A stretch of 64,000 nucleotides of DNA from assembly GCA_945860705.1 (NCBI GenBank), contig CAMART010000003.1, positions 62,001-126,000 of the forward strand. Reading direction: 5' to 3'. Shown in pieces: positions 575 to 31,778 of this stretch. Source of the DNA: Chitinophaga pinensis. GTDB lineage: Bacteria > Bacteroidota > Bacteroidia > Chitinophagales > CAMDFR01. The notes beneath the pieces were generated by a model, which saw only the letters and a program-made list of their open reading frames with translations, was not told the DNA's origin and did no database searches. Position numbers and translations under genes: made by a program. Numbering within the stretch: the first letter of the stretch is position 1; each line of letters begins with the position of its first letter.

Positions 575-2242
575 ATGAAAAAACAATTCCTAGTACTTTC
601 AATAAGTTTATTATTCTTATTGAATTTAAATGCTCAAACAGCAAAAACTACCATTACTTGGGGTTCTGAATTTATGTCACCTAAAAAACATGTTTTTACA
701 GGAGTTTTAGGAAATCCTAAAGATGGATACGTATCTATCAATCAGCGATATGGCAAAAGTTTGACATTACAAAAATTTAACACTGATTTAAAATTAAAAT
801 CTGAAAATGCTGTAGACTTAAAAACTATGCCTAAAGGCTATATGAGCGAGTTTTTTTTAGATATGAATAATAAATACTATTGGGTATATTCTACATGGGA
901 TAAGAAAGCTAAAATAGAACAACTCAATGTACGACCTATAGATATAAGTACTGCAAAACTTACAGGTAAGTCTACTCCTGTAATAAAATCAGATAAAAAA
1001 TTAGCAGGTGATTTAGTTGCTACTGGATTTTATAAAATAGGGACTGCGAATAAATGGGAAAGCGAATTATCTGATAATGGTAGCAAAGTTTTAGTTCATT
1101 ATAGATTGAAACCTGAGATAAAAGACGATTCTAAAAATAAAGATGTAATTGGATTATATGTATTTGATAGCGAATTTGAGGAAATATCAGGGAGACGTGT
1201 AGAAATGCCATATGTAGAAGAATTTCTTGATATTATGTCTTATCAAATAGATAATGCAGGCAATGCTTACATACTAGGTAAAGTATATGAAGGAAGTAAA
1301 AAAGAAAAAACAAAAGATAAAAAACCAAATTATCATTTTGAGATTTTTAAATACACTAAAGATAATTCTGAGGCAATAAAAATTTCATTAAAACTAGAAT
1401 CTACTTTTGTAAGCTCTATAAAACTTGTAGAAGGTAAAGAGGGTAATATGATATTGGTAGGCTATTATTCTAAATCTACATATGGTGCAGCAGATGGTGT
1501 ATTTTGTTTCAACCTAAATAGTACGACTAATAAAATCGAAAATAAATTTAAAGGATTTTATGAGTTTCCATCAGATATTATGAAAGCATACGAAAAAAGT
1601 AGAACTGCAAAAAAAGTAAATGATAAGGAAGCAAAAGATGCCAATGAATTAACATCTTTAAAAATCAAAGATATCATGGTAAATGAAGATGGAAGCTTTG
1701 ATGTTTTTGGAGAAGAATATACACATATATGGTATGTGAGAATAAATAATAGAAGAGTGGAATATGTTCACAAATTAATCTACGGAGATATTTATGTAAT
1801 GCGTATTGGTGCTGATGGAGAAATGAAACAAGTAAATAAAATACCAAAATATCAATTTAAATCATTAACTACATCTAGTCCTGTACTAGCTAATGAAGTA
1901 TTTGGAATGTCTTTCTATCTAGATAAAAAAGATGGTAATTATTTTATATACTATGTAGATAATCTAAAAAATCTAAATATCAAAGCTACAGATGCTCCAG
2001 AAAGACATGTTGATGGTGCAGGTGGTGTATTGATGTCAACTAAATTAGGCTCTGATGGAAGCTTGACAAAAAATAAATTGTTTGATTTTAGAGAAAAGAA
2101 ATATTATATCAATGTAACAGAAATGGATAGAATAGGACCAAATGACTATGTAGCTCTAGCATATGCATATTCTGATAGTCCATTTGCATATCTTACATTC
2201 AATAGCAAACCAAAAAAGTTTGTTCAAATCAGTGTTAAATAA
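575..2242 (+). CDS. Secreted protein of unknown function
   Basis: This 555-residue protein begins with a clear signal peptide (MKKQFLVLSISLLFLLNLNAQ), and I place its start at that methionine. The open frame reaches 26 codons further upstream, but those residues are not signal-like and overlap the malic enzyme end. The mature part is lysine-rich and beta-rich with repeated hydrophobic strands, which suggests a periplasmic or surface propeller or beta-sandwich protein. I see no catalytic motif and no T9SS sorting domain. A rho-independent terminator follows directly. I do not recognise the family. Confidence 0.8.
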   Translation: MKKQFLVLSISLLFLLNLNAQTAKTTITWGSEFMSPKKHVFTGVLGNPKDGYVSINQRYGKSLTLQKFNTDLKLKSENAVDLKTMPKGYMSEFFLDMNNKYYWVYSTWDKKAKIEQLNVRPIDISTAKLTGKSTPVIKSDKKLAGDLVATGFYKIGTANKWESELSDNGSKVLVHYRLKPEIKDDSKNKDVIGLYVFDSEFEEISGRRVEMPYVEEFLDIMSYQIDNAGNAYILGKVYEGSKKEKTKDKKPNYHFEIFKYTKDNSEAIKISLKLESTFVSSIKLVEGKEGNMILVGYYSKSTYGAADGVFCFNLNSTTNKIENKFKGFYEFPSDIMKAYEKSRTAKKVNDKEAKDANELTSLKIKDIMVNEDGSFDVFGEEYTHIWYVRINNRRVEYVHKLIYGDIYVMRIGADGEMKQVNKIPKYQFKSLTTSSPVLANEVFGMSFYLDKKDGNYFIYYVDNLKNLNIKATDAPERHVDGAGGVLMSTKLGSDGSLTKNKLFDFREKKYYINVTEMDRIGPNDYVALAYAYSDSPFAYLTFNSKPKKFVQISVK

Positions 2243-17296: not shown

Positions 17297-17530
17297 TTAT
17301 TTCTTATTAAGTAATAAGTCACTTAATTCTATTTGCATACCATCTGCTAATTCTTTTAGATAAACAATAGATGGATTTATATATCCTTTTTCTAATCTAT
17401 TTATATTCTGTCTATCTTTATCTGTAAGCCTTGCTAATTCAGACTGTGTGATATCAAGACTTTCTCTTTTAGATTTAACGAGTTGTCCAATTTCAATTAA
17501 AAAATTTCGCTTATCTTTTTTTGAAATCAT
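17297..17530 (-). CDS. XRE-family helix-turn-helix regulator
   Basis: I place the start at 17530 (MISKKDKRN), giving 77 residues. The frame is open 36 codons further, but that part is hydrophobic and lies in the divergent promoter region. Residues 9-70 form a Cro/C1-type domain: IGQLVKSKRESLDITQSELARL, then DRQNINRLEKGYINPSIVYLKELADGM. It is divergent from the split lipoprotein gene, with about 100 bases between the starts that hold a perfect 7-bp inverted repeat (17565-17584), so control of both directions is likely. No toxin partner is adjacent. Confidence 0.85.
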   Translation of the reverse strand: MISKKDKRNFLIEIGQLVKSKRESLDITQSELARLTDKDRQNINRLEKGYINPSIVYLKELADGMQIELSDLLLNKK

Positions 17531-17564
17531 TAAAAGCGAAATTGATATATAGTATGAAAAAAAA

Positions 17565-17584
17565 TGTAATCGTACTTGATTACA
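17565..17584. promoter_or_regulatory. Candidate operator, TGTAATC-N6-GATTACA
   Basis: A perfect inverted repeat with 7-base arms and a 6-base spacer lies in the divergent region between the XRE regulator and the lipoprotein gene. Size and symmetry fit a dimeric Cro/C1-type repressor. Assignment to the neighbouring regulator is inferred from position. Confidence 0.55.
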
Positions 17585-17636
17585 AAAAATAATATTTATA
17601 TCTTGTATTAATATTGTTAACATAAATAAAAAAAAC

Positions 17637-17942
17637 ATGAAAAATTTAAAATTTTTGTTTGTACTTATTTTTATAATAAGTATATTTAGTTGTAGAAAAG
17701 ATATTCAAAAATCTTATGTAGAAAAATCAATAAAGAAACTTACTTATACAAGCAAAAAAACAAATGAATCAAATAAAACAATTTCACAAATTAATTACGA
17801 ACTAGTTGATGGTCGATTAAAATTTGAGAATAAAGAAGATTTTAATGATATGCTCATAGGATTAGATAATGAAGTATTGGATGATTGGGAAGGAAGTATA
17901 GGTTTTACATCTTATAGAACTAGTACTAATAAGGAAGTATAG
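17637..17942 (+). CDS. Lipoprotein, N-terminal part of a gene split by a 41-bp duplication
   Basis: The 101-residue product has a lipoprotein signal (IISIFSC, Cys19) and ends in a premature TAG inside the second copy of a perfect 41-bp tandem repeat. Removing one copy puts this frame in register with the downstream frame at 17972 and gives a single protein of about 372 residues. The region around WEGSIGFTSYRT, joined to LNGNGIIQVSPFIFKL from the second part, resembles Bacteroidota surface lipoproteins that I know only as domains of unknown function. As it stands, only a truncated lipoprotein would be made. Confidence 0.7.
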   Translation: MKNLKFLFVLIFIISIFSCRKDIQKSYVEKSIKKLTYTSKKTNESNKTISQINYELVDGRLKFENKEDFNDMLIGLDNEVLDDWEGSIGFTSYRTSTNKEV

Positions 17943-17971
17943 GTTTTACATCTTATAGAACTAGTACTAAT
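17890..17971 (+). repeat. Perfect 41-bp tandem duplication causing a frameshift
   Basis: Bases 17890-17930 and 17931-17971 are identical over 41 bases. Because 41 is not a multiple of three, the second copy shifts the frame and brings a TAG at 17940-17942. With one copy, codons run on from ACT AGT ACT AAT directly into ATG GAA GAA at the start of the downstream frame. Confidence 0.97.
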
Positions 17972-18796
17972 ATGGAAGAAGCATTAGATGATGCATTAGA
18001 AAGTGAAACAGAACTAAACCTAAGTGATAGACAGCTTGCTTCTGTACTAAATGGAAATGGAATAATTCAGGTAAGTCCATTTATTTTTAAATTAATACCA
18101 GAAACTAGAACAGTATTAGTATTGGACGAAGTAAATATTTCAAATTTGAGCCTTTTACAAACATCTACTACTGCTAATAATGATGCATTTATTTTTGAAT
18201 ATTCATTTGATGAAGATGTGTTTGATGAACTAGAAGCTCAGCCAGACCCTAGCTCCAGAACTAGTGCGAGGCAAGGTTGTAATGATAAATATGCTAGAGC
18301 TAGTACAGATAAATATAATAACGAAGAGTCTTGTGGTTGGATATATGTGTCTGGAGCAAATAGAAAATTTAAATATTGGGCAAAACTAGATTATAATAGT
18401 GCTGGAATCAATAAAAAATTCTTTTTAGATATTAAAAGAAGACAAAGAACTCATACAAGTGCTTGGAGAAAACCTTGGGCAGCTACAAATGTAGATTTTA
18501 CGGCTCAATGGGCATATTGTACTAGATGTGGAGCTGAAAGTACAGGAGAATGTCCATCACCACAAACTGTAGAATCAAGTATTCATACAAAATTCAATCC
18601 ATATAGAACTTCAGTACCTGGTATAACAGGTACTTTATATTATTGGTCTAATGTAACCGATAGAGAATACGTATTCTATAGAGGAACAAGGTCGTTAAAA
18701 TCATATTATGCAAGAGCACAAACTAAATATTATTCGTGTGAAGGATCTATACTAGCGCCAAGTACAAGATATTTGTTAATAGAAGATTATAATTAA
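17972..18796 (+). CDS. C-terminal part of the split lipoprotein gene
   Basis: This 274-residue frame opens with the ATG just after the second 41-bp copy, 29 bases past the premature stop. It has no signal peptide of its own and is best read as the lost C-terminal part of the lipoprotein; reinitiation at this ATG is possible but would leave the product in the cytoplasm. It has LNGNGIIQVSPFIFKL at the start, then a cysteine-containing region (QGCNDKY, ESCGWIY, YCTRCGAESTGEC). Its stop is 3 bases before the next start, so it is in an operon with the beta-barrel gene. Confidence 0.7.
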   Translation: MEEALDDALESETELNLSDRQLASVLNGNGIIQVSPFIFKLIPETRTVLVLDEVNISNLSLLQTSTTANNDAFIFEYSFDEDVFDELEAQPDPSSRTSARQGCNDKYARASTDKYNNEESCGWIYVSGANRKFKYWAKLDYNSAGINKKFFLDIKRRQRTHTSAWRKPWAATNVDFTAQWAYCTRCGAESTGECPSPQTVESSIHTKFNPYRTSVPGITGTLYYWSNVTDREYVFYRGTRSLKSYYARAQTKYYSCEGSILAPSTRYLLIEDYN

Positions 18797-18799
18797 TAT

Positions 18800-19585
18800 A
18801 TGAGATTATTTTTATTAGTTATTTTAACATCATACTCAGTTTTTTGTGCAGAAGCACAAAAAACTGAGTATGGTATTTTGATGAATTATGGGGTAAATTA
18901 TACAACTAATAAAGTGGTATTTTCAGACTTAACAAACAATTTTAAAGCATATAATGTCCCTAATTTCAAGTTTCAATTTGGCGCATATATCACATTGAAA
19001 AATCACTATCATATCGAATGTAACTATAGGTGGGCTATAATTTCTATAGGATATAAATATAGTCGCATACTAAATTTGGAAAAAGGTGTTCATTCTTCAA
19101 GAACATATAGTCCACATAATAACTTTAACGTATTATTTGGTTATAATATTTTTAATAAGAAGTTATCAATAATGCCATATATAGGTATTAATTATATGTT
19201 TGATAATAATTATAATACTATTAGGGGAGGTTATTCTAGAAGTGGTGGCGAAGTATATGATTCTACAGGTACTATACTAATCAGTTCTGATTCTGAAGGT
19301 AATGATAGTGCTTATATGCCTAGAAAAGATATATTTGGTGTAGATATGGGTATTAGATTAAACTATAAAATAAAGATGATAAATTTCATGTTTAATATTG
19401 GCTATACACAAGGATTAAGTACTTATTTTTATGGAAGATACTATAGTCATGAATACAGAAGAGAACCATATCTAAATACAGGAATGTTTAAACATTTACT
19501 AAAAAGTAATTCTTCTTATTTATATATGACAGCAGGTATATCACTTAATATAGGATATTGGATTAAAAGGAAAAGTAATACTTAA
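18800..19585 (+). CDS. Outer-membrane beta-barrel-like protein
   Basis: The 261-residue protein has a signal peptide ending near AEAQ (residue 20). The mature part has alternating strands rich in Tyr, Asn and Gly (for example HIECNYRWAIISIGYKYSR and MINFMFNIGYTQGLSTYFYG), typical of small Bacteroidota porin-fold proteins. It lies 3 bases after the split lipoprotein gene and is probably its partner at the outer membrane. A perfect 17-bp inverted repeat lies within the signal-peptide codons (18833-18870). I do not recognise a specific family. Confidence 0.7.
   Translation: MRLFLLVILTSYSVFCAEAQKTEYGILMNYGVNYTTNKVVFSDLTNNFKAYNVPNFKFQFGAYITLKNHYHIECNYRWAIISIGYKYSRILNLEKGVHSSRTYSPHNNFNVLFGYNIFNKKLSIMPYIGINYMFDNNYNTIRGGYSRSGGEVYDSTGTILISSDSEGNDSAYMPRKDIFGVDMGIRLNYKIKMINFMFNIGYTQGLSTYFYGRYYSHEYRREPYLNTGMFKHLLKSNSSYLYMTAGISLNIGYWIKRKSNT
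18833..18870 (+). repeat. Perfect 17-bp inverted repeat in the signal-peptide codons
   Basis: Bases 18833-18849 are the exact reverse complement of 18854-18870, with loop AGAA. In mRNA this is a long uninterrupted hairpin that starts 33 bases after the start codon, in codons for about residues 12-24 of the beta-barrel protein. No T run follows, so it is not an ordinary terminator. Confidence 0.95.
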
Positions 19586-31448: not shown

Positions 31449-31457
31449 TAAAATAAA

Positions 31458-31778
31458 AGATGCCTCCTTCCTCGGCATTTCAAAATGTAATTTCATTATC
31501 ACAATTAGTTTGTCATTCTGACGAAGGAAGAATCTAATAGTATATCAATCAAATTATAGATGCCTCTTTCCTCGGCTTTCAAAAGGAATATATTATCGCA
31601 ATTAGTTTGTCATTCTGACGAAGGAGGAATCTCTATTAATTTCAAGTAAAAAAGATGCCTCTTTCCTCGGCATTTCAAAAAGCAAATATTTTATTACATT
31701 ATGCTTGTCATTCTGACGAAGGTAGAATCTAATAATATGTATTTCAAAGTTAGATGCCTCCTTCCTCGGCATTTCAAA
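31458..31778. repeat. Alternating inverted-repeat (REP/BIME-like) array of seven elements
   Basis: Element A (starts AGATGCCTC, ends CATTTCAAA, 26-27 bases) lies at 31458, 31558, 31653 and 31752. Element B (starts TTGTCATTC, ends GAATCT, 26 bases) lies at 31510, 31607 and 31705. B resembles the reverse complement of A, so neighbours can pair. They strictly alternate A-B-A-B-A-B-A with spacers of 20-25 bases. Similar sequences are, from memory, common between genes in Bacteroidota genomes. Confidence 0.88.

Follow-up and report, generated by a model that had tools for sequence, protein, structure and literature searches.

A recent 41-bp tandem duplication, most likely from slippage, in a lipoprotein gene of a Chitinophaga pinensis genome: a presumed loss-of-function allele, probably revertible

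Introduction

Reversible tandem duplications within genes are known from the capsule genes of Streptococcus pneumoniae, where they occur in the type 3 locus, cap8E and tts (Waite et al. 2001, 2003, as cited in PMC4243769 and PMC3541774). In Staphylococcus aureus, icaC undergoes phase variation by slippage in a tetranucleotide repeat, which is RecA-independent and reversible (PMC4117637). Microhomology-mediated tandem duplications that can be reversed are also reported for ssp1 in fission yeast (review PMC13207564).

Here we describe an exact tandem duplication of 41 bp inside a predicted lipoprotein gene from an assembled genome of Chitinophaga pinensis (Bacteroidota). The gene lies in the window, which is the whole 64,000-nucleotide stretch of DNA that was analysed, on contig G000:C3 of a genome of 2.94 Mb in 46 contigs (G000). 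As in the pneumococcal capsule genes, spontaneous duplication of a short segment inactivates a single reading frame and exact excision would restore it; reversion was observed in the pneumococcal cases, whereas this locus is represented by one assembled sequence of a Bacteroidota lipoprotein gene. The likeness to icaC lies in a frame-shifting change in a tandem repeat through slippage, which is the presumed process here, but the icaC unit is 4 bp long and belongs to a pre-existing short array, while the 41-bp unit is present in two copies and homologs have no array. Short microhomology at the ends and one extra copy within a coding region are shared with ssp1, which differs in being a eukaryotic gene with events demonstrated in populations; the present case comes from a bacterial assembly and its microhomology is imperfect (6/7). 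The locus shares the anatomy of phase variation by intragenic tandem duplication, a class defined by interconversion of its two states. An earlier note on this DNA regarded a long out-of-frame duplication as a different format from the usual switches, which is a weak distinction given the pneumococcal capsule genes as presented in those same sources.

Our preferred reading, to which we assign a probability of about 0.66, is that a single recent 41-bp tandem duplication, most likely produced by slippage, occurred in a formerly intact lipoprotein gene and created a probably revertible loss-of-function allele, with no indication of an evolved switch.

The duplication and its effect on the reading frame

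The features of the locus are as follows (window coordinates).

17297-17638, minus strand: divergent Cro/C1-type (HTH_3) regulator gene (PF01381, E=4.9e-12)
17637-17942, plus strand: lipoprotein gene, 5' part as read with two copies, carrying a signal peptide and lipobox Cys19 (101 aa)
17890-17930, plus strand: copy 1 of the 41-bp unit (sequence comparison)
17931-17971, plus strand: copy 2 of the unit, with the same 41 bases as copy 1 (sequence comparison)
17972-17978, plus strand: ATGGAAG, an imperfect partner (6/7, core GGAAG) of the AAGGAAG that opens each copy; likely slippage microhomology
17933-18796, plus strand: 3' part of the lipoprotein gene, frame intact, without a signal peptide of its own
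18800-19585, plus strand: partner gene for a predicted exported protein of 261 aa, beta-barrel-like by appearance only

The two copies lie head to tail within one open reading frame and are identical letter for letter, as the earlier note had it; their exact match continues for one base, to 17972, and then ends. Tandem Repeats Finder (TRF) places the end of the array at 17978, since six of the seven bases that follow copy 2 (ATGGAAG) agree with the AAGGAAG that opens the unit. The expected number of exact 41-bp tandem pairs is ~1.6e-16 for 2.94 Mb at local composition, which rules out a chance repeat, and the pair is therefore a duplication. The loop that contains the duplication also holds what could be an older repeat, in frame and matching at 13 of 15 bases, but such a match was judged to be within chance.

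The duplication is out of frame. In the two-copy state, a TAG stop codon at 17940-17942 ends the product after 101 residues, and the downstream frame (17933-18796) spans 287 codons from stop to stop, or 274 aa counted from the ATG at 17972. Scripted deletion of one copy joins the two frames into 372 codons plus a stop, and the open frame so restored matches the intact homologs. The truncation and the one-copy length of about 372 residues given in the earlier note are thus both borne out.

Homologs and the ancestral state

Homologs of the lipoprotein gene occur within the genus and in other families. Genome G002, of the same genus, has two adjoining homologs of 341 residues each, G029 has one, and wider searches added family members in G074, G371, G330, G450, G623 and G552. 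Those in G002 (both copies), G029, G074, G371 and G330 run uninterrupted across the split site with a shorter loop. Homologs match the present gene on both sides of the split, with (D/N)W..SIGF.S before it and LN..GIIQV..(Y/W)IFKL after it; between these anchors the lipoprotein family has a poorly conserved loop whose length varies. No tandem repeat was found at the duplication site in any homolog compared, all of which are from other species. Since the homologs are uninterrupted and match both flanks, this comparative evidence makes the intact one-copy gene the ancestral form and the second copy a derived interruption, which agrees with the earlier view that the duplication splits a once-intact gene.

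The split could also be read as giving two separate working proteins, a 101-aa lipoprotein and a 274-aa product re-initiated at the ATG at 17972, which lies ~30 bases past the TAG at the head of an open frame. This is very improbable: the 3' piece lacks an export signal, whereas the homologs are exported single chains, and intact homologs are never split at this site.

The lipoprotein, its partner and the regulator

By eye, the N-terminus of the product, MKNLKFLFVLIFIISIFSC, has a signal peptide and a lipobox cysteine (..SIFSC), both of which also occur in homologs. The best described surface export signal of Bacteroidota lipoproteins is C-X-K-(D/E)2 (PMC5080379). The residues that begin with the lipobox cysteine are C-R-K-D-I, with a single acidic residue, and fit neither this signal nor an S-D-D-rich one, although other Bacteroidota clades may differ. 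The earlier designation as a surface lipoprotein is therefore upheld for the signal peptide and lipobox cysteine and not for the surface location. No Pfam family was found for the 3' part and none above cut-off for the intact homologs, a PDB search gave nothing at E<=0.001, and searches for RNA features against Rfam and for tRNAs were likewise empty. AlphaFold models an intact homolog poorly overall (mean pLDDT 52), with low confidence for residues 96-122, which form the loop. No backup copy of the lipoprotein gene was found in G000.

A gene of ~235-265 aa, predicted to be exported and with the look of an outer-membrane barrel, comes after most of the lipoprotein homologs. The partner proteins are alike only weakly (23% over 128 residues, E 0.093), so that the pairing of lipoprotein and partner rests on gene order. 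A Cro/C1-type regulator divergently adjoins the lipoprotein gene both here (17297-17638) and in G330 (L093 960-1427), and the two genes are possibly a conserved control unit. The regulator frame is listed from an ATG at 17638, and its true start may be internal.

Elsewhere in the window, positions 31451-31778 hold a tandem array with a 97-bp unit (3.3 copies, 79% match) that contains GTCATTCTGACGAAGGAAGAATCT and looks like a dispersed Bacteroidota repeat.

Origin, age and revertibility

Template slippage is most likely the cause of the duplication, judging from the bases at its ends. The junction microhomology AAGGAAG/ATGGAAG is imperfect, at 6/7, and the chance of such a match at that register is ~0.003 by a hand calculation from match probability. 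During replication, CTTCCTT (the complement of AAGGAAG) would be copied into a new strand, which would then slip back and re-pair with CTTCCAT (the complement of ATGGAAG) with one mismatch. The product would have the order AAGGAAG...AAGGAAG...ATGGAAG, exactly as seen. As 41 is not a multiple of three, such an event would shift the frame and shorten the protein from 372 residues to 101, which would make the two-copy form a loss-of-function allele. A search for the 41-bp unit in viral contigs found none.

The duplication is recent, as indicated by the identity of the copies together with the open downstream frame. The 274 downstream sense codons have been kept though 6.2% of random single substitutions there would create a stop, and the upper bound on age is ~2-3% neutral divergence if indels are assumed to occur at 10% of substitutions. 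The earlier proposal of a recent event or ongoing exchange holds in its first part; an absence of other defects does not show the second.

Reverse slippage would delete one copy and restore the frame, and perfect repeats of this type are prone to such spontaneous copy loss. In E. coli, 101-bp tandem repeats undergo deletion at high frequency even in the absence of RecA (PMC8378479), and for this reason the two-copy allele is probably revertible, with the proviso that the E. coli rate applies to 101-bp repeats in another organism.

Assembly status

A search for the 16S gene in G000 found none, while the same search was positive in nine of 14 control genomes. With 46 contigs and no 16S gene, G000 is probably a short-read metagenome-assembled genome (MAG). 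This bears on the possibility of an assembly artefact or strain mixture, in which the real or predominant form would have one copy and the contig would carry a duplicated overlap or a minority haplotype. A perfect duplication that breaks an otherwise intact frame would fit such an origin, and its length is suggestive because some assemblers work with k-mers of 41. However, short-read assemblers collapse such repeats more often than they create them, the duplication ends carry a biological microhomology, and 1.55 Mb of the genome contains no second exact 41-bp tandem duplication, the other long one being a 44-bp intergenic repeat. We consider an artefact unlikely. The earlier note had placed a dead-end mutation and an assembly error on an equal footing with a switch; of these the dead-end mutation is the likeliest, and an assembly error or strain variant keeps a smaller probability.

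Heptamer arrays of AATTCTT occur at L013 6185-6313 (the end of G000:C3) and at L012 17913-17968; the contig that carries the window ends inside one of them.

Switching or recurrent loss

Exact tandem repeats with periods of 18-300 bp were scanned for in 1.55 Mb (~53%) of G000, and seven were found. Repeats of 21, 22 and 44 bp are intergenic, two heptamer arrays lie outside genes, and an 18-bp repeat lies within a repetitive gene and keeps its frame, which leaves the 41-bp pair as the only exact out-of-frame tandem duplication inside a gene. The 44-bp duplication (L072 11672-11762, G000:C7) is the only other long non-heptamer case in the scanned sequence. A genome-wide habit of such duplications was considered and set aside, with no second case in the 1.55 Mb.

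Other family members are also broken. A third paralog in G371 (G371:C92; L098, ~1464-1490, minus strand) has been split by a frameshift that adjoins a poly-A run; gene decay, homopolymer phase variation or an error of assembly could each account for it. In G401:C298 (L102, first 150 bases, reverse strand, at a contig end), a homolog lacks its 5' part and is broken at the same loop; the sequence there resembles one end of an insertion element, with the start of a transposase on the other strand. About three of 13 clear family members, with the 41-bp duplication included, are broken, each by a different lesion, which fits recurrent loss of a dispensable or sometimes costly gene by ordinary lesions.

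A selected phase-variable switch, in which copy gain and loss would be fast enough to maintain ON and OFF cells together, would account for the perfect copies, for a length that breaks the frame and for the frame that stays open downstream. It has pneumococcal capsule gene precedents (cited in PMC4243769 and PMC3541774), and the frameshift beside the poly-A run would turn off a second family member by a lesion of a reversible type. Against this, no homolog has a repeat at the site, the scanned stretches hold no second case, and the apparent insertion element in a third member points to loss in general. We judge a selected switch decidedly unlikely, and the on/off switch of the earlier note is not supported by a duplication that is solitary in the scanned half of the genome, repeat-free homologs and breakage of other members by unrelated lesions. 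The broader proposition that lipoprotein/partner genes in Bacteroidota are phase-variable or repeatedly switched off by any repeat-borne lesion, with one- and two-copy states coexisting naturally, is likewise improbable.

Implications

As it stands, the two-copy allele is probably an ordinary and recent loss-of-function mutation. One-off duplications of this kind can imitate switches. If the duplication is real, it provides a clean, potentially self-reversing knock-out allele in a probable environmental Bacteroidota genome. If both states are shown to coexist, switching by duplication of the type known from pneumococcal capsule genes would be extended to a lipoprotein of another phylum.
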